From assembly GCF_011806455.1 (NCBI RefSeq), contig NZ_JAATOT010000006.1:1-64000 (forward strand): a DNA stretch of 64,000 nt, read 5' to 3'. Source of the DNA: Celeribacter sp. HF31 (lineage in GTDB: Bacteria > Pseudomonadota > Alphaproteobacteria > Rhodobacterales > Rhodobacteraceae). This document shows, one piece after another, positions 33,383-49,040 of this stretch (within the stretch, counting starts at the first letter, position 1; each line of letters opens with the position of its first letter). A program made the position numbers and the translations under genes. The notes under the pieces are model-generated. The model worked only from the letters and a program-made list of their open reading frames with translations. It was not told where the DNA came from and made no database searches.

Positions 33383-34048
33383 ATGAAAGTAATCGGATCA
33401 AAAGCCACTCTGGCGCTCGTCGCTGCTCTGGCCATGCCCGTGGCGGCGCAAGCCGGCGAATTCAGCCTCTCTGTCTACGGTGGCTACCAAACCGCGCCGC
33501 ATAGCGACGTGTCTGGCACCGATGGCGGGACCGATTTCGATTTCAACGCGGGCTGGGACGGCGAAAGCACAGCAATGCCGCCCTACTACGGCATTCGCGG
33601 CACCTGGTGGGTGCGGGACAATTTCGGCTGGATCGCGGATTTCAACCACACCAAGGTTTACGCCAATGATGAGACCCTGGCCGACAGCGGGTTTTCGACG
33701 CTTGAGTTCACGGACGGTTTGAACAATTTCACCGTGGGCCCGATCTGGCGCTGGCCGGGTCTGTGGAACAATTTCACGCCCTATGCGAGCGTCTCCGCAG
33801 GGGTCGTGGTGCCGCATGTCGAGGTGGAGACGCCCTATTCGTCGAACTCGACCTTCGAATATCAACTCGCGGGGCCGAGCATCGCGCTTGTTCTGGGCGC
33901 CAGCTATGAGCTGAACGACCGTTGGGATCTCTTCACCGAGTACAAAGGCACCTACAGCCAGCTTGACGTCGATCTCGATGGCGGTGGCAATCTTGAGAGC
34001 GACATCATCACCAATGCGCTGAACTTTGGTGTGACTTACAAGTTCTGA
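33383..34048 (+). CDS. Outer-membrane beta-barrel protein, LpxQ-like
   Basis: 221 residues: signal peptide (MKVIGSKATLALVAALAMPV, cleavage near AQA/GE), then alternating aromatic/polar strands and a C-terminal Phe as in OmpA-like eight-strand barrels. The segments SVYGGYQTAPHSDVSGTDGG, MPPYYGIRGTWW and LTPYASVSAGVVVPHVEVE resemble proteins annotated as lipid A oxidase (LpxQ) in rhizobia; that enzyme oxidises the proximal glucosamine of lipid A. I am sure of the barrel, less of the activity. It is divergent from sucC. Confidence 0.8.
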   Translation: MKVIGSKATLALVAALAMPVAAQAGEFSLSVYGGYQTAPHSDVSGTDGGTDFDFNAGWDGESTAMPPYYGIRGTWWVRDNFGWIADFNHTKVYANDETLADSGFSTLEFTDGLNNFTVGPIWRWPGLWNNFTPYASVSAGVVVPHVEVETPYSSNSTFEYQLAGPSIALVLGASYELNDRWDLFTEYKGTYSQLDVDLDGGGNLESDIITNALNFGVTYKF

Positions 34049-34069
34049 TCCATCGCCGGAACGCGATAG

Positions 34070-34098
34070 AAAAGCCGGGCCCCCGTGTCCGGCTTTTT
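34070..34098 (+). terminator. Terminator behind the barrel gene
   Basis: AAAAGCCGG / CCGGCTTTTT, a 9-bp stem with a 10-base loop ending in five T. Just after it GTGCCTGGCTTTTTC is repeated almost exactly twice (34100-34127). It also lies 30 bases after the stop of the convergent glycosyltransferase gene and may serve both. Confidence 0.85.
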
Positions 34099-34127
34099 CG
34101 TGCCTGGCTTTTTCGTGCCTGGCCTTT

Positions 34128-35126
34128 TCACATCTCAAGCCCGGCCTTGGCCAGAATTTCGCCGTCCCTCTCCCGCAAAAGTGCATCGAAGGTGGCGCGT
34201 GTCAGGTCCAGATCGTCGCAGTCTTTGGGCATAAAGGGATCGAGGTGCAATCGGTCGAGCGCCAAGAGGCTTTCCGCTTGACGCGCATCGAGCGATTGCA
34301 CCCCCTCCACAAGCCGCAGGATCTCGCGCGGGCGATCGGCGTGGTTACGGGTAAAGCGGTATTGTGCTTCGCGCGCCTCGCCGATTTTACGTTTCGGACC
34401 GGAATAATTTTCGAAGGATTTCTTGAGCAGCTTGATTGCATAGTGCAGCGGCGTGAGCCCGTCGAAATGCAGCAAAAGACGTCTGTTTGTTGACGTCAGG
34501 AGAGGTTTCGGGCCAGTCCCGAGCGCTTTGGGGTGATGCACCCCCATCTCCCATTTCTGTCCTGTCGGCACGATGGTTTTGCCGGTGTGATGCCCGGTGA
34601 GCCCTTGAGAAAGGAACTTGCCGAACCGACCGTAGAGCGCCTGTATATCCTCCGGCGCCAAGACGATTGGGTGTCGAAATCCGCCCTCGAACAGCATCTC
34701 GCCGGGAGAGCCGGGCAGGTAGGCGCGCTCGGCATTGCGGATGACGAGGCCTTTGCTGCGATCCGCTTTGACCAACGCTTTGGAAAGTGCGGCGCCGTCG
34801 GAGATGAATTCATCGACGTCGCAATGCAAAACCCAGTCGCAGGTCGTGCTTTGATAAACGCTGGTCGAGACGAATTTCTGCCGTCCGGTGTGGCGCTCCG
34901 GGCGGCGGCCCTGGTTGACGCGGTCCCAATGTGCCTGATCGCAGGTCGTGATGAAAATCCCGTCCCGATCCCCGATCAGTCGCACCACCTCGGGGTTCGG
35001 ACGGTCGAGAAATACGTGCACTTCGGAGGCGCCGATGGCCCTGTGGTGCCGGGCAAAGGCCGCGATCAAAGGCGCGGGTTCATCCCCCAAAGCGGCCACG
35101 GCCCAAGTGGGAGCGCCCCCCGCCAT
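34128..35126 (-). CDS. Glycosyltransferase family 2-like protein (PF13704-type), second copy
   Basis: 332 residues. EVHVFLDRPNPEV and the DXD-like WVLHCDVDEFIS mark a GT-A fold, of the same type as the gene in front (WLDADEFLL). It probably transfers a sugar onto a surface polysaccharide or lipid. Start codon and upstream stop overlap (TCAT), so the pair is co-translated. No other polysaccharide genes flank the pair directly; the TCA genes are on both sides. Confidence 0.85.
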   Translation of the reverse strand: MAGGAPTWAVAALGDEPAPLIAAFARHHRAIGASEVHVFLDRPNPEVVRLIGDRDGIFITTCDQAHWDRVNQGRRPERHTGRQKFVSTSVYQSTTCDWVLHCDVDEFISDGAALSKALVKADRSKGLVIRNAERAYLPGSPGEMLFEGGFRHPIVLAPEDIQALYGRFGKFLSQGLTGHHTGKTIVPTGQKWEMGVHHPKALGTGPKPLLTSTNRRLLLHFDGLTPLHYAIKLLKKSFENYSGPKRKIGEAREAQYRFTRNHADRPREILRLVEGVQSLDARQAESLLALDRLHLDPFMPKDCDDLDLTRATFDALLRERDGEILAKAGLEM

Positions 35127-36094
35127 CAGGCGATCTGTCCCAGTTTGGCCGCAAGTGTTTCGGCGACGGCTTCGGCGGCGCGGGCAGTGTTCGGGTCTTG
35201 CAAAAGGCGCGCCATCTCTTGGGTCACGGCTGCCTCGTGTTGGTGGTGACCGGTCTCTTCGCGCGCGTTGAAATTCTTGGCCGCGTAGAAGTCTTCATCC
35301 CGCTGCACCTCTTGCGGATTGGCAAAATAGCCGTCGCCGCGCTGGCGTTTGAGGGCAAACATATCCGGCGTGCGGATCGAGAAATGCAGCACGCGTCCGA
35401 GCTTATAGGGCTGTTTTTCGACATTGATCCGGTTGAAGGGCACGCGTTTGGTACGGTCGAAAAACCGGGGCTCCATGTCGGTGCCTGCGGAGTTGAGTGC
35501 CCGGAAATTTTCCGGCGTTACGTCAGGCGCCAAAATAGGGCGGTGGATGTCCAGCGCCTCGATGGCGTCGGACCACCGGAACAGGGTTTTGACCTGTGTC
35601 GATTTGCCTTTCCACACGGGCGCGGCACCGGTGAAGGCGGTGGAAATATGCCGTCCGGGCCAATGCGTATGCCCGCTGTCGCCCATGAAGCGCCAGGCGA
35701 TGGAGACGGAGGAGGCCTTTGCCGCCTCGGCCGCCGCGATGATGTGCTCCACCGTTCCGCCTTGGGCGGGCAGCAGAAATTCGTCCGCGTCGAGCCACAT
35801 CACCCAATCGCCGTCCCGGAAAAAGCCGCTGTCTTTCGCAAGACGCGCGGCATGGGTTTGCGGCGGAATGCCCTCTGGGACGATCTGTTTCACATGGGTA
35901 ATTTCGCCCGCCGCATCGAGCGCGTCGAGCAGCGTGTCGGAGCCATCGTCACAATCGTTAGAGGTGATGAAAATCTCCGTAAACCCGATGATCTTGTGAT
36001 AGGCGATCCACTCCAAAAGAAACGGCCCCTCGTTCTTTTGCGCGGAAAACAGGACGCGGCGGGCGGGCGAGGTTTGGGGATCGGGAGAGGTCAA
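35126..36094 (-). CDS. Glycosyltransferase family 2-like protein (PF13704-type), first copy
   Basis: 322 residues. RRVLFSAQKNEGPFLLEWIA and YHKIIGFTEIFITSNDCDD form the N-terminal nucleotide-binding half; WVMWLDADEFLLPAQGG carries the DXD-like metal site. The C-terminal half has helical, His-rich segments. Its product is unknown; cell-surface glycan work is the best guess. The gene is separated from mdh by that gene's terminator and has its own promoter in the short gap 36095-36167. Confidence 0.85.
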   Translation of the reverse strand: MTSPDPQTSPARRVLFSAQKNEGPFLLEWIAYHKIIGFTEIFITSNDCDDGSDTLLDALDAAGEITHVKQIVPEGIPPQTHAARLAKDSGFFRDGDWVMWLDADEFLLPAQGGTVEHIIAAAEAAKASSVSIAWRFMGDSGHTHWPGRHISTAFTGAAPVWKGKSTQVKTLFRWSDAIEALDIHRPILAPDVTPENFRALNSAGTDMEPRFFDRTKRVPFNRINVEKQPYKLGRVLHFSIRTPDMFALKRQRGDGYFANPQEVQRDEDFYAAKNFNAREETGHHQHEAAVTQEMARLLQDPNTARAAEAVAETLAAKLGQIA

Positions 36095-40013: not shown

Positions 40014-40562
40014 ATGACCCTTCTTAGTCTCGGACTGCTGTTCTGGGTGGCCGCCCATCTGTTCAAACGACTGGCGCCGGAGATGCGCGGGGGGATGGGA
40101 GAGAAAGGCAAGGGGCTTGCGGCGCTGGGCATTTTGGTGGGGCTGATCCTGATGATCGTCGGCTACCGGATGAGCGGGACGCATGATCTCTACGCCCTGC
40201 CGACCTATCTGCGCCATGTAAACAACACGCTGATGGTGATTGCGGTGTTTTTGTTCGCGCTCGGGCATTCCAAAAGCCGCCTGCGTGGCAAGATGCGGCA
40301 TCCGATGCTCACCAGTGTCGTGGTCTGGGGCGTGGCGCATCTTTTGGTGAATTCGGATGCGGCCTCTCTGGTGCTTTTTGGTGGCATGACGCTTTGGGCG
40401 CTTGTCGAGATGGCATTGATCAACCGGGCGGAACCGGCGCCTGAGCGGTATAAAGGCGGCAGCCTGGCGGGTGACATCCGTCTGGTGGTGATTTCTCTCG
40501 TGGTCTTCGGCGCGATTGCCGGGGTACATATCTGGCTTGGGTATAACCCGTTTCCGATGTGA
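40014..40562 (+). CDS. NnrU family membrane protein
   Basis: 182 residues with about five membrane helices (LSLGLLFWVAAHLF, ALGILVGLILMIVGYRM, MVIAVFLFALGHSKSRLRGK, VVWGVAHLLVNSDAASL). The NnrU family, related to MddA/isoprenylcysteine methyltransferase-like proteins, was first noticed in nitric-oxide reduction loci, but no denitrification genes are here. Its function in this operon is unknown. The start at 40014 follows GGAG by eight bases. Confidence 0.85.
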   Translation: MTLLSLGLLFWVAAHLFKRLAPEMRGGMGEKGKGLAALGILVGLILMIVGYRMSGTHDLYALPTYLRHVNNTLMVIAVFLFALGHSKSRLRGKMRHPMLTSVVVWGVAHLLVNSDAASLVLFGGMTLWALVEMALINRAEPAPERYKGGSLAGDIRLVVISLVVFGAIAGVHIWLGYNPFPM

Positions 40563-40793: not shown

Positions 40794-41825
40794 GTGAAAA
40801 CCAATCCGGGACGTTTTTTCGAGGATTATAACATCGGGCAGGTGATCGAGCACGCCGTGCCGCGCACCGTGTCGGGCGGCGAACGCGCGCTCTATCATGC
40901 GCTCTATCCGGCGCGGCATGCGCTGTATTCCTCCGACGAGTTTGCCGAAAGCTGCGGGTTGGAGAAAAGCCCGCTGGACGATCTGATCGCCTTTCATGTG
41001 GTCTTTGGCAAAACCGTCCCGGATATTTCGCTCAACGCGGTGGCGAACCTTGGCTATGCCGAAGGGCGCTGGCTGAAGCCGGTCTATCCGGGCGATACGC
41101 TGCGCTCGGTCTCCGAGGTGATCGGGCTGAAGCAGAACTCCAATGGCAAATCGGGCGTGGTCTATGTGCGCACGACTGGCCTCAATCAATTCGACGAACC
41201 TGTGTTGGAATATGTCCGCTGGGTCATGGTGCGCAAAGGCGATCTGGATGCGCCTGCGCCCGAGACGGTGATCCCGGAGCTGACCAAGGTGGTGGCGCCT
41301 GCGGATCTGGTGATTCCGGAGGGGCTGGATTTCCTGAAATACAACTTCACGCTGGCTGGCGAAGCGCATCGGTTTGGCGATTATGAGATCGGCGAAAAGA
41401 TCGACCATGTGGACGGGGTGACCATCGAGGAAGCCGAGCACATGATGGCGACCCGGCTCTGGCAGAACACCGCGAAGGTGCATTTTGATGCGACCAATCG
41501 CGAGGACGGCAAGCGTTTGATCTATGGCGGGCATGTGATTTCCATGGCGCGGGCCTTGTCGTTCAATGGCTTGGCCAATGCTCAGATGATCGTCGGCCTC
41601 AACGGCGGTGCGCATGCCAATCCGTGTTTCACCGGCGACACCGTGCGGGCTTATACCGAGGTGCTCGACAAGGCGGAAACTGAGGCTCCGGGTGTCGGGG
41701 CGCTGCGGCTGCGGCTCGTGGCCTATAAACATGGCGCACCGGAGTTTGCCTATAAGACCGAGGAGGGGAAATATCACCCCGATGTCTTGTTGGATCTGGA
41801 TTACTGGGCCGTCGTGCCCCAGTGA
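40794..41825 (+). CDS. mch: Mesaconyl-CoA hydratase (beta-methylmalyl-CoA dehydratase)
   Basis: 343 residues: two MaoC/hot-dog hydratase-like domains in tandem (about 1-155 and 170-340). FFEDYNIGQVIEHAVPRTVS and DLIAFHVVFGKTVPDISLNA match the Mch of Rhodobacter, which hydrates mesaconyl-CoA in the ethylmalonyl-CoA pathway. The start is GTG at 40794, placed by GGGAGGA upstream. The operon with mcl2 makes sense because the two enzymes act near each other in the pathway. Confidence 0.9.
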   Translation: MKTNPGRFFEDYNIGQVIEHAVPRTVSGGERALYHALYPARHALYSSDEFAESCGLEKSPLDDLIAFHVVFGKTVPDISLNAVANLGYAEGRWLKPVYPGDTLRSVSEVIGLKQNSNGKSGVVYVRTTGLNQFDEPVLEYVRWVMVRKGDLDAPAPETVIPELTKVVAPADLVIPEGLDFLKYNFTLAGEAHRFGDYEIGEKIDHVDGVTIEEAEHMMATRLWQNTAKVHFDATNREDGKRLIYGGHVISMARALSFNGLANAQMIVGLNGGAHANPCFTGDTVRAYTEVLDKAETEAPGVGALRLRLVAYKHGAPEFAYKTEEGKYHPDVLLDLDYWAVVPQ

Positions 41826-41863
41826 GTCTGGTGTGAGCCTTTCGAGGCTGAATTTGTGATCGC

Positions 41864-41899
41864 AAAAAGGGGCTGCGCAGGACCGCGTGGCCCCTTTTT
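41864..41899 (+). terminator. Terminator behind mch
   Basis: AAAAAGGGGC / GCCCCTTTTT, a 10-bp stem with a 16-base loop, ending in five T, 38 bases behind the mch stop. TGTGATCGCA, one mismatch from the TCA palindrome, sits at 41855-41864, at the left foot of the stem. Confidence 0.9.
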
Positions 41900-41969
41900 C
41901 GTGAAATTCTTAATCTGAAGCTCTGAAAATCCTTATAAAAACCCTAGGAAAGCGTCTCGTGTCCAATTT

Positions 41970-41999
41970 TGTGATCACTGAATGTTTCTTGTGATCACA
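41970..41999. promoter_or_regulatory. Pair of TGTGATCACA palindromes before sdhC
   Basis: TGTGATCACT (41970-41979) and TGTGATCACA (41990-41999) are 20 bases apart, about two helix turns. They are 127-157 bases before sdhC and match the paired sites before sucC and the single site before the GntR gene. The remaining part of the interval 41900-42126 holds no gene. Confidence 0.7.
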
Positions 42000-42126
42000 G
42001 AATGCGTTTTCCTGCACGTCAAGCTGGATAAACCGACCTTGTTAGCGCTCACAGGTGGTGACTCCAGAGCAGAAACGTATATTACGAAAAGCAACTTCAA
42101 CGCATCAATCGTGAAAGGACGCCACC

Positions 42127-42525
42127 ATGGCTGATGTGAATCGCGGCAACCGACCGCTCTCTCCCTTCATGATCGGACCCTATTATCGACCGCAAATGAC
42201 GTCGATCTCCTCGATCATGGTCCGTATCACCGGCATTGCATCGCTGGGCTCCGTCTTCCTCGCGATCTGCTGGTTCCTCGCAGCCGCAAGCTCCGAGACG
42301 GCTTTCAATTTCTTCAACGGTCTCTACGGCAGCTGGATCGGCAACATCGTGATGCTCGCCGCGGCCTGGGCGATCTGGTACCACATGCTGGGCCGGGTGC
42401 GTCATGTGATCTGGGACTTCGGCTACTGCCTGGATGTCGAGACCTCCGAGAAAATGGGCTGGGGCATGTTCATCGGGGCGACCGTCCTGACCGTGCTGAC
42501 CGCTCTTGTGTTTCTGATTTTCTGA
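42127..42525 (+). CDS. sdhC: Succinate dehydrogenase, cytochrome b556 subunit
   Basis: 132 residues, three membrane helices. RPLSPFMIGPYYRPQMTSIS and the HMLGRVRHVIWDFG segment are the conserved family regions; the His in RHVIWD is the usual heme ligand. It anchors the SdhAB module and forms the quinone site with SdhD. Start at 42127 with AAGGA upstream. First gene of the sdh operon, behind a pair of TGTGATCACA sites. Confidence 0.93.
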   Translation: MADVNRGNRPLSPFMIGPYYRPQMTSISSIMVRITGIASLGSVFLAICWFLAAASSETAFNFFNGLYGSWIGNIVMLAAAWAIWYHMLGRVRHVIWDFGYCLDVETSEKMGWGMFIGATVLTVLTALVFLIF

Positions 42526-42535
42526 GGGGATCGCC

Positions 42536-42910
42536 ATGAACTTTCTCACTGACCGCAAACGTGCGACAGGTCTGGGCTCCGGGCATACCGGTGCGCAACA
42601 TCACTGGCTGACCATCGCGACGTCCCTGTCGCTTGTCATTCTCGTGCCGCTCTTCGTCTTCACCTTCGGCTATGCCGTGGGGCATTCTTTTGAAGACGTG
42701 CTGGCCTTCTACGGCAATCCTTTCGTGGCGATCATCACGGCGCTCTGCCTCGTGGGTGGCATCATCCACCTCAAGACCGAAGTGGACGAGGCCGTCGAAG
42801 ATTACGTGGGCGGCCTCAAGCGCAAGCTGACGCTGATCGCTGTGGCGGGCTTTTGCTACACGCTGATGGCGGCCGGCCTCTTCGCCCTTTTGAAACTCGC
42901 CATTCAGTGA
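42536..42910 (+). CDS. sdhD: Succinate dehydrogenase, hydrophobic anchor subunit
   Basis: 124 residues with three membrane helices; [22 protein letters not shown]... starts the chain, and the His-containing [15 protein letters not shown] segment carries the second heme-side residues. It pairs with SdhC. Starts ten bases after the sdhC stop with GAGGGG upstream. Confidence 0.92.
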
Positions 42911-42932
42911 TGCGCGGCAAGGAATAAAGACA

Positions 42933-44741
42933 ATGACAGCAGCATATGAATATGAAACCCACGAATACGACGTGGTCGTCGTTGGCGCCGGTGGTTCTGG
43001 TCTGCGTGCGACGCTCGGTATGGCTGAGCAAGGTCTGCGCACGGCCTGTGTGACCAAGGTCTTCCCGACCCGTTCGCACACCGTCGCGGCTCAGGGCGGC
43101 ATCGCGGCCTCTCTTTCGAACATGGGGCCGGACAACTGGCAGTGGCACATGTATGACACTGTCAAGGGCTCCGACTGGCTTGGCGACACCGACGCGATGG
43201 AATACCTCGCCCGTGAAGCGCCCAAGGCGGTGTACGAGTTGGAACACTACGGTGTGCCGTTCTCGCGCACCGAAGAAGGCAAGATTTACCAGCGTCCCTT
43301 TGGCGGTCACACCACCGAATTCGGTGAAGGCCCGCCGGTGCAGCGCACCTGTGCCGCCGCTGACCGCACCGGCCACGCGATCCTGCACACGCTTTACGGC
43401 CAGTCCGTGAAGAACAACGCGGAATTCTACATCGAATATTTCGCCATCGACCTGATCATGTCCGACGACGGTCAGTGTCAGGGCGTGCTCTGCTGGAAAC
43501 TCGATGACGGCACCTTCCACCTCTTCTCCGCGAAGATGGTTGTGCTGGCGACGGGGGGCTATGGCCGCGCTTACTTCTCCGCGACGTCTGCCCACACCTG
43601 CACCGGCGACGGTGGCGGCATGGTGGCCCGTGCGGGTCTCGCGCTTCAGGATATGGAATTCGTTCAGTTCCACCCGACCGGCATCTACGGCTCTGGCTGT
43701 CTGATCACCGAGGGCGCGCGCGGCGAAGGCGGCTACCTGACCAACTCCGAAGGCGAGCGCTTCATGGAGCGTTACGCGCCGACCTACAAAGACCTCGCAC
43801 CGCGTGACTACGTGTCCCGGTCCATGACGATGGAGATTCGCGAAGGTCGCGGTGTGGGCGAGCACAAAGACCACATTTTCCTGAACCTCAGCCACCTTCC
43901 GGCCGAGGCTCTGGCGGAACGTCTTCCGGGCATCTCCGAATCCGCGAAAATCTTCGCAGGTGTGGATGTGACCAAAGAGCCGATCCCGGTTCTGCCGACC
44001 GTGCACTACAACATGGGCGGTATTCCGACCAACTATCACGGCGAAGTTCTGAACCCGCAGGCAGACAATCCGACCGCTGTCGTTCCGGGTTTGATGGCCG
44101 TGGGCGAGGCGGGCTGTGCCTCCGTGCATGGGGCGAACCGTCTGGGCTCCAACTCCTTGATCGACCTCGTGGTCTTTGGCCGCGCCGCCGCGATCCGCGC
44201 CGGACAGGTTGTCGATCCGAAGGCGCCGAACCCGGAGCTGAACATGGCGTCCGTGCAAAAGGCCTTTGATCGTTTCGACACGATCCGTTACGCCAAAGGC
44301 GCGATTCCGACCGCCGAACTGCGTCTCGAGATGCAGCGCACGATGCAGGCCGACGCCGCCGTGTTCCGCACCGACAAGACGCTGAAAGAAGGCGTCGAGA
44401 AGATGACCGCTGTGGCCGGCAAAATGGGCGACGTCTCTGTCACCGATCGCAGCCTCGTGTGGAACTCCGATCTGATGGAAACGCTGGAGCTCACCAACCT
44501 GATGCCCAACGCCTTGGCCACCATCCACGGTGCAGAGGCGCGCAAGGAATCCCGTGGTGCGCATGCCCATGAGGATTACCCGGAGCGTGACGATGCGAAT
44601 TGGCGCATCCACACGATTTCCCGCGTCGAAGGCAATGAGGTTGAGCTCAGCTACCGTCCGATCATCGAGGACCCGCTGACGACCGAAGCCGAAGGCGGCA
44701 TCAGCCTCGCCAAGATCGCGCCGAAAGCGCGGACCTTCTAA
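42933..44741 (+). CDS. sdhA: Succinate dehydrogenase flavoprotein subunit
   Basis: 602 residues. [16 protein letters not shown] binds FAD; H49 in [11 protein letters not shown] is the covalent FAD residue; the substrate-binding [16 protein letters not shown] and the [20 protein letters not shown] blocks are intact. It oxidises succinate to fumarate. A hairpin after its stop separates it from three unrelated genes that stand before sdhB. Confidence 0.97.
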
Positions 44742-44758
44742 GGCAAAACCAACATGGT

Positions 44759-44777
44759 CGCCCCGCATTTCGGGGCG
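44759..44777 (+). terminator. Hairpin between sdhA and the pyruvyl transferase gene
   Basis: CGCCCCG / CGGGGCG, a 7-bp stem with a five-base loop, 18 bases behind sdhA, followed after seven bases by TTTT. It is weak as a terminator and could lower the expression of the downstream genes relative to sdhA. Confidence 0.5.
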
Positions 44778-44805
44778 GCCCTCCCTTTTCAACCGGACCT
44801 GCAAG

Positions 44806-45612
44806 ATGTCGCTGAAACTGTTTTGGTGGAAATCGCAACCGAACTTTGGAGATCGCATCTCCAAGGATATCGTTGCCTATGTTTCCGGCCAGACAGTCGA
44901 GTGGGCAGGACCGGAAGAGGCCGAGATGATTGGCGTTGGCTCGATCATGTACGCGGCCCGACAAAGCTTTAAACGCGGCAATAAGGTCAGCCCCTGGCTC
45001 TGGGGCACCGGCGCGATGAAGCCGCTGCCGACCGATTTCATCGACCACATCCAGATCGCGGCGTTGCGCGGACCGATCACCCGCGAAATTCTTGGGGTCA
45101 AGACCGAGGTCTTCGGCGATCCGGGGCTTTTGATGCCGCTGGTTCTGGGCGGAGCGGTCGAGAAAACCGGCAAGATCGGGGTTATTCCCCATATTTCGCA
45201 GGCCGACGAGACGGCTGCGGCGCTGGCGGGGCTTGGCGATAAGCTCGAGATCATCGATCCGCGCGGCGAGAACCACCTCGATGTGGTGCGCCAGATCGCG
45301 GGCTGCGACGTGGTGTTTTCCTCAAGCCTGCACGGGCTGATCATCGCGGATGCCTTTGGCGTGCCCAATGTCTGGCTCGATCCCGATGGCAACCACCCCT
45401 TTGCGCGGCTGAAATTCTACGATTACGCGGCGGGGATCGGGCGTGTCATGCCCTTGCCAATCTCCGTGCGCCAGATCGAAGCGACGCTAGATGCGGGCAT
45501 CGCGCAGGTCGACTATGGCGAGAACGTGCGTCAGGCGCAGCAGCGCTTGATGGAGGCCTTCCCGGCTGCGTTCAAGGCCAAGACCGCCCCGAAAGCCGAG
45601 GTGGCGGCATGA
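44806..45612 (+). CDS. Polysaccharide pyruvyl transferase family protein
   Basis: 268 residues of the PF04230 family. LFWWKSQPNFGDRISKDIVA at the start, an ALRGPITREI segment, and SSSLHGLIIADAFGVPNVW near the end are characteristic. These enzymes attach pyruvate ketals to surface polysaccharides. It sits in the sdh operon between sdhA and sdhB and overlaps the next gene by four bases, so it is a translational partner of the sulfotransferase-like gene. A link to respiration is not apparent. Confidence 0.85.
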   Translation: MSLKLFWWKSQPNFGDRISKDIVAYVSGQTVEWAGPEEAEMIGVGSIMYAARQSFKRGNKVSPWLWGTGAMKPLPTDFIDHIQIAALRGPITREILGVKTEVFGDPGLLMPLVLGGAVEKTGKIGVIPHISQADETAAALAGLGDKLEIIDPRGENHLDVVRQIAGCDVVFSSSLHGLIIADAFGVPNVWLDPDGNHPFARLKFYDYAAGIGRVMPLPISVRQIEATLDAGIAQVDYGENVRQAQQRLMEAFPAAFKAKTAPKAEVAA

Positions 45613-46262
45613 GTGTGATCGACCACAAAACCGGCGCTGCACGACCGTTGATCCTTCAGATCGGATTCAACCGCTGTGGCACGCTGAGCTTTCATCGGCT
45701 GATGGAAGACAATGGCATTCCGGCGCTGCATTGGCAGGAGCCGGAGGGCCGCAATGTCGCGCAGGTGATGGTGAGCAATCTGGCGATGGGCCGCAAACCG
45801 TTTGACGGGTTTGAGGGCGTGCGGGCCTTTTCCGACATTGCCTTTCTCAACGGTCAAATGATGATCGACGGCGCGCGGCTTTTCCGCAGCCTCCATGCGG
45901 CCTACCCGGACGCCTATTTCTTTTTCAACACGCGGGATAAATCCGATTGGATCGCCTCGCGTGCGGCGCATGCCAATGGCACCTTCCTCAAACGGTTCTG
46001 CAAAATGTCGGGCCTTGATGAGGCTGGCGCGAAAGCGGCCTGGGGTGAGATGTTCGACCGCCACACGGCAGAGGTGCAAAGCTATTTCGCGATGGCAGAT
46101 GCCCGGTTCCTGCAATTCGATCTGGACCGCGATGCGCCGTCGAAAATCGCCGACTGGCTTTCGCCGGATTTCGCAGTGGATGCGTCGCTTTGGGGCCATT
46201 ACAACCGCAAATCCCAGCCGCGGGCGCTGCGGGCTGAGACGAACAAGGAGGCGCTCGGATGA
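45609..46262 (+). CDS. Sulfotransferase-like protein
   Basis: 217 residues. IGFNRCGTLSFHRLMED resembles the 5' phosphosulfate-binding loop of sulfotransferases (usually GFNRCGTTS), and FFFNTRDKSDWIASRAAH the 3' phosphate-binding segment. Family members transfer sulfate from PAPS to carbohydrates or lipids. It is translationally coupled on both sides. The call as sulfotransferase is by motif only; the catalytic His or Lys is not certain. Confidence 0.72.
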   Translation: MSVIDHKTGAARPLILQIGFNRCGTLSFHRLMEDNGIPALHWQEPEGRNVAQVMVSNLAMGRKPFDGFEGVRAFSDIAFLNGQMMIDGARLFRSLHAAYPDAYFFFNTRDKSDWIASRAAHANGTFLKRFCKMSGLDEAGAKAAWGEMFDRHTAEVQSYFAMADARFLQFDLDRDAPSKIADWLSPDFAVDASLWGHYNRKSQPRALRAETNKEALG

Positions 46263-46606
46263 TCCGCCTCGGTTTCAAAACGCCTTTCGCAGGGGGGATC
46301 GCCGGGATGATGCTTTTGGCTCTCTCCGGCTGCATCGAGTCCTCCGCTTTGGTCGAGGACACCACGCGCTCGGCGGCCAAATCGGTGGTCAAAACCGTGA
46401 TCAACGACAAGTTCCCCGGCGTGAATGCCGATGTCTATGTCGACTGCATCATGGACAATGCAGAGATGGATCAGCTTGTCTCGCTCGCTCAGGCGGCGGT
46501 GGTGGGCGTCGATCAAAGCACGGTGCAGATCGTGACCGACATCGCCCGCGAACCCGAAACGCTCAGATGTATCGCCCAGGGTGCTCTGGGTGTGCCGAGC
46601 GGATAG
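46259..46606 (+). CDS. Putative lipoprotein in the sdh operon
   Basis: 115 residues, not recognised. [20 protein letters not shown] is a lipoprotein signal with the lipobox LSGC (Cys at about 26). The mature part is mostly helical and contains two further Cys (CIMDNAEMD and LRCIAQG), which could form a disulfide. It overlaps the sulfotransferase-like gene by four bases. Its presence in the sdh operon may be a family trait in Rhodobacteraceae; the role is unknown. Confidence 0.78.
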
Positions 46607-46614
46607 GGGGCGCG

Positions 46615-46722
46615 ATGACAGATTATTTTCGCCGGATGTCAGACCGAGGCCAGATGGCCCAAGCCGCATCCAAGTCAGATATGAAACACAACTCTCTGCC
46701 GGCACGTCCGGCGTCAAACTAG
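46615..46722 (+). CDS. Possible small protein (35 residues) before sdhB
   Basis: An ATG at 46615 opens 35 codons ([20 protein letters not shown], then [15 protein letters not shown]) and ends 11 bases before sdhB. A GGGG stretch lies six to ten bases before the start. The product is basic with no motif. It may be real, or a translational leader for sdhB, or chance. Confidence 0.35.
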
Positions 46723-46733
46723 GGGAACAGGCC

Positions 46734-47513
46734 ATGGTTCAGTTTAACCTTCCCAAGAACTCCAAAATCGTGACGGGCAAGACCTGGCCGAAGCCCGAGG
46801 GCGCGACCAATGTCCGCAAATTCCAGATCTACCGCTGGAATCCCGATGACGAGAAAAACCCGTCGGTGGACACCTATTTCATCGACATGGACAAATGCGG
46901 TCCGATGGTTCTCGACGCGCTGATCAAGATCAAGAACGAGATCGACCCGACGTTGACCTTCCGTCGTTCGTGCCGCGAGGGCATCTGTGGCTCCTGCGCG
47001 ATGAACATCGATGGGATCAACACGCTCGCCTGCATCTACGGTCTCGACGAGATCAAGGGCGACGTGCGCATCTTCCCGCTGCCGCACATGCCGGTGGTGA
47101 AAGACCTCATTCCCGATCTGACCCACTTCTACGCCCAGCATGCGTCGATCATGCCGTGGCTTGAGACCAAGACCAACCGTCCTGAGAAGGAATGGCGTCA
47201 GTCCATCGAGGATCGCAAGAAACTCGACGGTCTCTATGAGTGCGTGATGTGCGCTTCTTGCTCGACCTCTTGCCCGAGCTACTGGTGGAACGGCGACGAA
47301 TACCTTGGACCGGCAGCTCTGCTGCACGCCTACCGCTGGATCATCGACTCGCGCGATGAGGCCACCGGCGAGCGTCTCGACTACCTCGAAGACAGCTTTA
47401 AACTCTATCGCTGCCACACCATCATGAACTGTGCGAAAACCTGCCCCAAGGGTCTGAACCCGGCGGCGGCGATTGCGCATATCAAGAAGATGATGCTCGA
47501 ACGCACCCACTAA
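46734..47513 (+). CDS. sdhB: Succinate dehydrogenase iron-sulfur subunit
   Basis: 259 residues. [2Fe-2S] ligands C80, C85, C88 and C100 ([10 protein letters not shown]...LAC); [4Fe-4S] and [3Fe-4S] ligands C170, C173, C176, C180 and C227, C233, C237 ([22 protein letters not shown]). It carries electrons from the flavin of SdhA to quinone. It is separated from sdhA by almost 2 kb containing three other genes. Start at 46734. Confidence 0.96.
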
Positions 47514-47538
47514 GCGGTTTCGACAAAAACGTGAAATG

Positions 47539-47559
47539 CCCCGCTTCGGTGGGGTTTTT
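47539..47559 (+). terminator. Terminator behind sdhB
   Basis: CCCCGC / GTGGGG around a stable TTCG loop, followed by TTTTT. 25 bases behind the sdhB stop; it closes the sdh operon. Confidence 0.9.
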
Positions 47560-47633
47560 CTTTTGCGCTTCTCCCCCTTGCCTCATGCGTCACGCCCGCC
47601 CATCCTGCGCGGAGTTGTTTGAGGAGTTCCCCC

Positions 47634-49040
47634 ATGCGCAAATCCATTGGCGCCCGTTTCCTGATCGTCGGCCTGCTGACGCTTTTGATGTTCATTCCGC
47701 TGTTCTTCGTCTCGGACATCGTGCAGAGCCGTAAGACTTATTCGCAAAGCACCCTGCGTGAGGTGGGCCGCGAATGGGGCGGGGATCAGGTGATCGCAGG
47801 CCCGATGCTTGTGATCCCGGTCGAGGAAACCGTGGACCGCACCGAACGCGAAGCGGTGATCAACCCGGACACGGGCGAGGTCGTTCTGGACGCCGATGGG
47901 TCTCCGCGCCAGCGCCGGGTGACGCGCAAGGTGACCGTGAGCCGCGATCCGATCTATGTCTATCCGGGGCGCTTCGATGTGGATATCGACACGCAAACGC
48001 AAATTCGCCATCGCGGTATCTTTTCGGTGCCGGTCTATCAGGCGGGGATCGACATGGGGTTCGATTTCCCCTGGGACCAGATCGACGCGCAGGCCGTGAA
48101 TGACGAGGTGATCCTCTGGGATCGGGCCGAGCTGATCCTGTCGCTGTCTTCCAACGCCGCGCTGCGCGGGCAGGCGGTGTTGACCGTCGATGGCGCCGAA
48201 GTGCCGCTTGAACCGATTGCCTCGGCCGACGATGCCGCCGGTATCATGGCGGCTTTGGGCGATCCGCGTGGCAAGAGTGACTATGCGCTGACGCTCGGCG
48301 CCAATGGCGCGCAGTCCTTTCAGATCGCGCCGGTCGGACGTCAGACGGCTGTGACCATCAGGTCCGACTGGCCGCACCCGAGTTTCCGGGGCGCCTTCCT
48401 GCCGGACGGTTCGGAGATTTCCGAAGAGGGCTTCTCCGCCACCTGGACCATCCCGCATCTGGCCCGCACCCTGCCGCAGATGACCCGCGAGAATTACACC
48501 CGGACCCTGCGCTACAATATGGCCTTCGGGGTCGATTTCATCGAGCCGAATGACTTTTATCAAAAGTCCTTCCGTGCGGCGAATTATTCGATCCTTTTCA
48601 TCGCGCTGACCTTTCTCACCGTTTTGCTGGTGGAAAAAGGTGCCGAACGCCCGGCCCACCCGGTGCAATATATCCTGATCGGTCTGGCGCAATCGATTTT
48701 CGTCCTCTTGATGGTGGCCTATTCCGAACAGATCGGCTTTGGCCCCGCCTATGCGCTCTCTGCCGGGGCGACCATTGCGCTTTTGACCTTCTTTGGCGCT
48801 GTGGGGCTGAAACTCGGACGGCGCACGGCGGTTCTGGGCGTCATGCTTTTGGTGCTTTATGGCGTGCTCTATCTGATCCTGCGCTCTGCGGATTATGCAT
48901 TGCTTGCGGGGGCGTCCCTGTCCTTTGTGGCTCTGGCCGCGACCATGTTCTTTACCCGCAACGAGGATTGGTACGGGCCGGAGGGCAGCGGCTTGTTCGC
49001 GCGTAAACGCAAGGAGCCTGCGCCCAAAACAACGTCGTAA
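47634..49040 (+). CDS. creD: CreD-like inner membrane protein
   Basis: 468 residues: one N-terminal membrane helix (about 6-24), a large periplasmic part (25-300; REWGGDQVIAGPMLVIPVEE), then about five helices in the C-terminal third (FIALTFLTVLLVEKG, LIGLAQSIFVLLMVAY, LLTFFGAVGLKLG, MLLVLYGVLYLIL, LSFVALAATMFF), as in the CreD family. CreD is linked to the envelope stress and beta-lactam response in enterobacteria, but no creBC pair is near. The start at 47634 has GAGGAG upstream. Confidence 0.88.
   Translation: MRKSIGARFLIVGLLTLLMFIPLFFVSDIVQSRKTYSQSTLREVGREWGGDQVIAGPMLVIPVEETVDRTEREAVINPDTGEVVLDADGSPRQRRVTRKVTVSRDPIYVYPGRFDVDIDTQTQIRHRGIFSVPVYQAGIDMGFDFPWDQIDAQAVNDEVILWDRAELILSLSSNAALRGQAVLTVDGAEVPLEPIASADDAAGIMAALGDPRGKSDYALTLGANGAQSFQIAPVGRQTAVTIRSDWPHPSFRGAFLPDGSEISEEGFSATWTIPHLARTLPQMTRENYTRTLRYNMAFGVDFIEPNDFYQKSFRAANYSILFIALTFLTVLLVEKGAERPAHPVQYILIGLAQSIFVLLMVAYSEQIGFGPAYALSAGATIALLTFFGAVGLKLGRRTAVLGVMLLVLYGVLYLILRSADYALLAGASLSFVALAATMFFTRNEDWYGPEGSGLFARKRKEPAPKTTS

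Follow-up and report, generated by a model that had tools for sequence, protein, structure and literature searches.

Between the succinate dehydrogenase genes sdhA and sdhB of Celeribacter sp. HF31, in a stretch of 64,000 nucleotides (nt) of contig NZ_JAATOT010000006.1 (positions 1 to 64,000, hereafter the window), lie three open reading frames (ORFs) coding for a predicted pyruvyl transferase (ORF1), a predicted sulfotransferase (ORF2) and a predicted lipoprotein (ORF3). We consider it rather probable that the sdhA-sdhB gap serves as a permanent site for cargo genes within a respiratory operon, with a resident lipoprotein, revolving decorators of surface glycans and exchange by recombination through the flanks. 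Genome comparison shows an insertion hotspot, a characteristic cargo class, a lipoprotein locked to this location, turnover of the transferases, deletion remnants and identical tracts running into sdhB.

Core metabolic operons are usually regarded as closed units. We extracted the sequence preceding sdhB at 120 loci, namely the window, 19 congeners and 100 other genomes of the family (code f1 of the search tool). The 100 non-genus loci were the best listed by SdhB similarity to the window, of 281 matched among 295 searched, with the window's own genome (G000) and G002 set aside; the sample leans to near relatives, with most loci the only one of their genus and 20 from Celeribacter. The sequence-only reading of the window had proposed comparing the gap among relatives, and the comparison was informative: sdhA and sdhB had the same direction in 120/120 loci, 10 to 3774 nt apart, and the gap reached at least 250 nt in 96/120 and at least 1000 nt in 48/120. 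Because the neighbouring junctions of the same loci were open in 0/115 (sdhC-sdhD, never above 27 nt) and 1/116 (sdhD-sdhA, which reached 150 nt once and was closed in the other 115), the insertion goes beyond chance. Outside the family, the gap did not exceed 57 nt in 24 of the 27 measurable alphaproteobacterial loci and was 285-527 nt in three (a 28th locus had no sdhA within 1.5 kb). Thirty-four further family loci, picked for holding the lipoprotein, had gaps of 322-5347 nt.

In the window, the operon and its inserts are arranged as follows:

42127..42525, + strand: sdhC (TIGR02970, 93.1 bits)
42536..42910, + strand: sdhD (TIGR02968, 43.3 bits)
42933..44741, + strand: sdhA (TIGR01816, 931.9 bits)
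44756..44780, + strand: GC-rich 10-bp hairpin, terminator-like with a weak tail, in the sdhA/cargo spacer
44806..45612, + strand: ORF1, predicted pyruvyl transferase, 268 amino acids (aa) (PF04230, E=2.9e-12)
45609..46262, + strand: ORF2, predicted sulfotransferase, 217 aa (Sulfotransfer_4 PF17784, E=4.2e-10)
46259..46606, + strand: ORF3, predicted resident lipoprotein, 115 aa (lipobox LSGC; three invariant cysteines)
46615..46722, + strand: 35-aa open frame, probably no gene (not conserved in congeners)
46613..46952, no strand assigned: probable recombination tract, 340 nt identical to congener G007 (3' end of the cassette and start of sdhB)
46734..47513, + strand: sdhB (NF004616, 378.3 bits; ATG start at 46734)
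47619..49040, + strand: creD, envelope integrity protein (NF008712, 404.1 bits), directly 3' of sdhB

The sequence-only reading had named a pyruvyl transferase, a sulfotransferase and a lipoprotein here, as the Pfam matches and the lipobox bear out, and had described each as overlapping the next. Four-base overlaps (ATGA) do couple ORF1/ORF2 and ORF2/ORF3, and the description is right from ORF1 to ORF3; sdhA and ORF1 are separated by a 64-nt spacer, and the 35-aa frame, which the same reading counted as a small frame of the operon, begins 8 nt past ORF3, without overlap. That frame is intact in G007, but in C. naphthalenivorans (G001) a one-base deletion breaks it, and in the congeners G004 and G016 its start motif was not found; it is therefore probably not a gene. 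The strain C. naphthalenivorans EaN35-2 has the cassette in common with the window.

Among the 120 loci, 24 gaps were closed, 40 held a lipoprotein only (clusters c0 or c2), 27 a transferase only, 26 both, and three something else, on mechanical calling of operon-strand ORFs of 30 aa or more. Transferase labels were given by cluster, plus ten loci chosen by eye or by Pfam; for cluster c3, loci L134 and L137, and members of c1 and c11 without a Pfam match, they rest on similarity or motif. To describe the cargo, we scanned the 108 operon-strand gap ORFs of at least 90 aa outside the lipoprotein cluster. Many had no match, and the 23 Pfam families found at E<=0.001, generic methyltransferase models included, were sulfo-, pyruvyl-, methyl- and glycosyltransferases or RfbT. 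Sulfotransfer_1 was matched by 10 ORFs, Sulfotransfer_4 by six, Sulfotransfer_3 by five and Sulfotransfer_2 by one, and pyruvyl transferases accounted for five; several gap ORFs scanned singly also lacked a Pfam match. With NCBIfam, nearly all of the 25 families listed, out of 50 matched by the same ORFs, were glycosyltransferase or methyltransferase models. The labelled transferases lie on the operon strand in 50/53 loci.

In cluster c1 (19 members), 10 members match Sulfotransfer_1 and eight Sulfotransfer_3, two sets that may overlap. Cluster c3 had no sulfotransferase match in Pfam, and its alignment against solved structures returned nothing relevant. Its predicted structure (predicted local distance difference test score, pLDDT, 88.7) aligned best by VIA-align with the sulfotransferase 3rnl (Z 11.7, root-mean-square deviation (rmsd) 4.4, 191 aligned), with adenylate kinase close behind (Z 11.0), and the first Foldseek row was a GTPase. 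On this model, c3 is likely a sulfotransferase.

No integrase, transposase or recombinase was found among ORF1-ORF3 or in the Pfam matches of the 108 ORFs, and ten gap proteins, including ORF1-ORF3, had no match to the PADLOC defence models at E<=0.001. The window's gap is also not a capsule-type locus, its three genes including none for export or polymerisation. The polysaccharide loci between galF and gnd and between dexB and aliA are similar in that conserved flanks anchor recombination and variable contents alter the surface. They are, however, complete loci for synthesis and export, whereas sdhA-sdhB holds one to few decorators within a single core metabolic operon.

ORF1 belongs to PS_pyruv_trans (PF04230; 47.5 bits, cut-off 25.3), while as a CsaB S-layer pyruvyl transferase (TIGR03609) it scored below the cut-off (12.9 vs 213.1 bits). 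The residues S-L-H-G are invariant across eight aligned members of its family. Among the 12 plasmid relatives listed, seven are annotated as polysaccharide pyruvyl transferase, two as glycosyltransferase family 2, and three are unannotated; many are rhizobial (Sinorhizobium, Rhizobium, Shinella). ORF1 is presumably ExoV-like: like the ExoV-type ketal pyruvyl transferases of rhizobial succinoglycan, it exceeds the curated PF04230 cut-off and has relatives on rhizobial plasmids, but it sits in the sdh operon and not in an exopolysaccharide cluster. Solved-structure searches with ORF1 and with its alignment gave nothing relevant.

ORF2 belongs to Sulfotransfer_4 (PF17784; 40.3 bits, cut-off 22.8). 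Searched alone against solved structures it had no match, and its alignment matched a sulfotransferase weakly (E=0.0066). On a Leisingera plasmid, a relative is part of a surface-polysaccharide cluster that also encodes UDP-galactopyranose mutase, a rhamnosyl transferase, further sulfotransferases, an ABC transporter and a sugar transporter. The window's own genome encodes an adenosine phosphosulfate (APS) kinase (PF01583, E=1e-60), by which the sulfate donor 3'-phosphoadenosine-5'-phosphosulfate (PAPS) could be supplied, and three polysaccharide-export genes. Sulfation and pyruvylation both render a polymer acidic, as the sequence-only reading had said.

The lipoprotein is the steadier component of the site. 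ORF3 had no Pfam or NCBIfam match; its cysteines, C25 of the lipobox, C63 and C104, are invariant in 34 aligned members, and the lipobox pattern with its N-terminal cysteine occurs in 34/34. Its profile matched 58/120 gaps, on the operon strand every time (clustering gave 44 ORFs, overlapping frames having hidden some). A six-frame search found the family in 124/295 family genomes, with 16 first-look candidates scored per genome and the absences being upper bounds; it also recovered all 48 family loci with a profile-found gap copy. In 122 of the 124 genomes, the best match lies in the sdhA-sdhB gap or beside one of its flanks. These comprise two genomes and the 48 fetched loci, 34 of 36 loci fetched afterwards, and 38 of 38 placed by coordinates, where both sdh flanks are known in 13 and one flank in 25. 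The other two matches lie elsewhere (G223, locus L191; G309, locus L187); at L191 the neighbours resemble, by eye, a substrate-binding protein and an NAD-dependent epimerase. In a class-wide sample of 142 genomes, the family was found in the window's own genome only (121 of these are not listed individually; among those listed, one other genome shares the window's family), and ORF3 was not found on any of 72,556 plasmid records.

The predicted structure of ORF3 is all-helical (pLDDT 84.1). Foldseek returned no match to it at E<=0.001, and the best VIA alignment (Z 5.8, rmsd 3.2, 68 aligned) was not a convincing relative; the lack of a convincing structural match does not show a new fold. This location-locked, three-cysteine lipoprotein offers a testable protein family for which no relative is known as yet. 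A second small lipoprotein family (c2) was observed in 22/120 gaps (e.g., L076:6754-7050), in 14 of them together with the first.

A position locked beside sdhA and sdhB, a start that is often translation-coupled and a vertical signal on the gene tree (see below) would also suit an accessory factor for assembly or stability of succinate dehydrogenase, with the transferases as hitch-hikers. We regard this as very unlikely. The lipoprotein was not found in 171/295 family genomes, although some copies may be missed with 16 candidates scored per genome, nor in the other genomes sampled from the class. Furthermore, a lipobox implies export while SdhA and SdhB face the cytoplasm, and no structural relative of the lipoprotein was convincing.

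We then followed the cargo on a FastTree phylogeny of SdhA and SdhB from 118 loci (two of the 120 were left out for short matches). Transferase presence required at least 37 changes, against 38.9 (standard deviation, sd, 3.0) in shuffled data, and carries no phylogenetic signal; the lipoprotein required 22 changes against 39.5 (sd 2.8), and carries one. The same fluidity is visible among congeners. G017 is about 94% identical to the window in both sdhA and sdhB, yet its gap is empty (12 nt); of the pyruvyl gene, G007 (96% in both genes) retains a remnant of 56 aa, and G016 seemingly keeps, by eye, a few codons from its start.

Besides the 340-nt tract shared with G007, the window is identical to G001 over 46685-46936 (252 nt), again from the cassette into sdhB. 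The first difference within sdhB is at nt 220 in G007 and at nt 204 in G001, which leaves 219 and 203 identical nt, and divergence beyond this start is 5.4% and 7.0%, respectively; in the empty-gap G017, the first difference comes already at nt 6. Such identity is the mark expected when recombination reaches from the cassette into sdhB, and from these alignments we consider both stretches probable recombination tracts.

The vehicle could be gene transfer agents (GTAs) of the RcGTA type, which would explain both the restriction to the family and the usual size below about 4 kb. TIGR02217, a gene family of such agents, was found in 18/20 Celeribacter genomes, and all 120 main-set gaps measure 3774 nt or less. 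RcGTA fragments of about 4.5 kb, integrated by allelic replacement, are described in PMC9690577. Nevertheless, this vehicle is unlikely in our view: TIGR02217 was not found in G017 nor in the window's genome, where TIGR02218 was not found either (the assembly is 96% complete), one further gap reaches 5347 nt, and ordinary transformation or conjugation would serve equally.

Taken as a standing cargo site, the gap could work as follows. A resident lipoprotein gene, its start often overlapping the sdhA stop (an ATG sits on the last base of that stop in 52/96 open gaps), would mark the site in roughly every second genome, and its product would sit in the envelope. Beside it or in its place, one to few stand-alone decorator genes would be gained, swapped and lost, in whichever direction a given change ran; a single decorator may be enough, since the polymer that it modifies would already be there. 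The acceptor would be a surface polysaccharide whose synthesis is encoded elsewhere in the genome: ORF1 would attach pyruvate ketals to it, drawn from phosphoenolpyruvate (PEP), and ORF2 sulfate, with PAPS as donor, which would raise its acidity. The conserved sdhA and sdhB flanks would anchor the homologous recombination that brings in new versions, while internal deletion would erode old ones; selection, perhaps by phages or other surface-binding agents, would drive this turnover.

The cargo would be read through with sdh and would need no promoter of its own. In favour of such read-through are the coupled starts and the reverse transcription PCR (RT-PCR) result for one sdh insert of Ruegeria pomeroyi (PMC3305630). 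Sigma-70-like promoter sites numbered 0 in 41800-47700, against 1.8 expected in shuffles, and terminator-like sites 12, against 5.1 expected, neither count being evidence of function. The hairpin after sdhA also occurs in the congeners G001 and G007, and is possibly an attenuator or a stabiliser of the mRNA end. Across the family, the first 75 nt past sdhA had z below -2 in 21/96 open gaps and in 5/96 interior control windows; this enrichment is mild, and the hairpin was dropped as a defining family-wide feature.

Several observations weigh against the cargo-site reading. The hairpin at 44756-44780 could stop read-through into the cargo, and read-through from sdh cannot express the 3/53 transferases on the opposite strand. 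One sdhA-sdhB gap holds an opposite-strand nitroreductase. With 40/120 gaps lipoprotein-only and 24 closed, the site does not depend on decorators, and the open or closed state of the gap itself has no phylogenetic signal (22 changes vs 21.4 shuffled). Finally, third-position GC of the cargo is near that of the flanks, with mean differences of -0.080 for 60 transferase ORFs and -0.061 for 60 lipoprotein ORFs (P=0.56), and a distant foreign origin is unsupported.

The sequence-only reading had also described envelope genes as threaded through the tricarboxylic acid (TCA) gene cluster. This holds in other family genomes and extends to the nuo operon. In 20 measured genomes (20 chosen from the family plus the window, L213 giving no measurable junction), mdh-sucC was at least 250 nt in 20/20, sucB-lpd in 18/19, sucC-sucD and sucD-sucA each in 11/20, and sucA-sucB in 0/20. 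Among 64 junction ORFs of at least 90 aa, Pfam matched MAPEG 10 times, the commonest at suc, GT2_4 seven times, GT92 five, GT8 three and DUF805 three, along with sulfotransferase models, one FkbM methyltransferase and others; the cargo class is broader at the suc junctions than at sdhA-sdhB. In the window, the glycosyltransferases noted beside mdh are indeed of GT2 type, with two GT2_4-type genes (one also GT92) at 34128-36094 between mdh and sucC, families also represented at other TCA junctions and in the L118 sdhA-sdhB gap. An LpxQ-like barrel proposed beside sucC found no support, the ORF at 33398-34186 being without a Pfam match.

The window's genome also has a sulfotransferase gene (PF13469, E=2.6e-10) in its nuo operon, placed between nuoC and nuoD (L253:2031-2927). 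A relative occurs in 17/19 Celeribacter nuo regions and is kept, unlike the sdh cargo; the nuoC-nuoD gap is 873-910 nt in 17 regions and 182-183 nt in the other two. Other nuo junctions carry small genes for secreted- or lipoprotein-like products, and tandem DUF5333 proteins lie just upstream of nuoG (L253:8740-9668); nuo names beyond nuoB, nuoC, nuoD, nuoG and nuoH are presumed from position. Rhodobacter capsulatus nuo likewise has lineage-specific genes, the extra reading frames (URFs), among its core subunits. The difference in Celeribacter is that the nuo sulfotransferase persists in 17/19 regions, whereas the sdh cargo turns over.

Extending the cargo-site reading, the sdh, suc/mdh/lpd and nuo operons might form one distributed surface-decoration system of fixed open junctions. 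Here, the sdhA-sdhB cargo would be swappable one gene at a time by flank recombination, diversifying surface charge and phage-receptor chemistry with respiration-tied expression, and the lipoprotein would be resident at its site. We hold this extension only tentatively. Closer to the suggestion of the sequence-only reading that envelope charge is tied to respiration, surface charge might have to track the respiratory state (e.g., an acidic polymer made only aerobically), with selection holding the cargo in place. The glycosyl- and sulfotransferases at suc junctions, the conserved nuoC-nuoD sulfotransferase and a lipoprotein seldom found elsewhere than sdhA-sdhB would fit such coupling, which we still find doubtful, given that the transferase cargo is without phylogenetic signal and is missing in close relatives. 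Because the gap of the congener at about 94% identity is empty and the transferases lack that signal, the tie to respiration is not obligatory.

The turnover, the remnants and the empty gaps would also fit if the operon interior simply tolerated inserts and gave them free transcription, common envelope genes landing there without positional benefit. Other classes do land, namely MAPEG and DUF805 at suc junctions and the nitroreductase in one sdh gap, and Roseobacter operons are reported to contain non-conserved inserts commonly (PMC3305630). We judge this neutral account possible, though not probable. The sdhA-sdhB cargo class is narrow, sdhC-sdhD and sucA-sucB are closed in all cases measured and sdhD-sdhA in nearly all, and tolerance alone would hardly account for a lipoprotein family that is almost restricted to a single junction.

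This bacterial family is common in the sea, and particular sdh, suc and nuo junctions stay open throughout it, with neighbouring junctions shut in nearly all genomes measured. If expression is shared, respiratory transcription would set envelope chemistry in these bacteria, and a one-gene swap inside sdh could alter phage sensitivity, biofilm formation or particle attachment. Scoring the gap by its length and content would also make a simple assay of the turnover rate of surface decorators.

Variable, poorly conserved genes inside Roseobacter sucCD and, commonly, sdhCDAB were reported in 2012, other bacteria being without them (PMC3305630). In Ruegeria pomeroyi, the inserts SPO_PG016 (sdhCDAB) and SPO_PG006 (sucCD) were co-transcribed with operon genes by RT-PCR, and a third, SPO_PG005, which lies between sucAB and sucCD, proved to be transcribed separately from the operons on either side. 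The likeness to our site lies in the same operons, the same clade and low conservation; the difference is that the available part of that paper gives no function, lipoprotein family, family-wide count or turnover, and the words "lipoprotein", "sulfotransferase" and "glycosyl" do not occur in the main text. The available part of PMC9603517 does not treat the inserts, and we found no later treatment of sdh or suc inserts in the literature searched, most subscription journals lying outside it. Beyond PMC3305630, our analysis seems to add that the sdhA-sdhB cargo is of envelope type and that its lipoprotein is locked in place, a resident among revolving genes; the recombination tract and the sulfotransferase in nuo also seem new.

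An Rfam scan of the window found one transfer RNA and nothing else. Beside the sdh operon, the window carries nnrU (40014-40562) and a mesaconyl-CoA hydratase-like gene (40794-41825).

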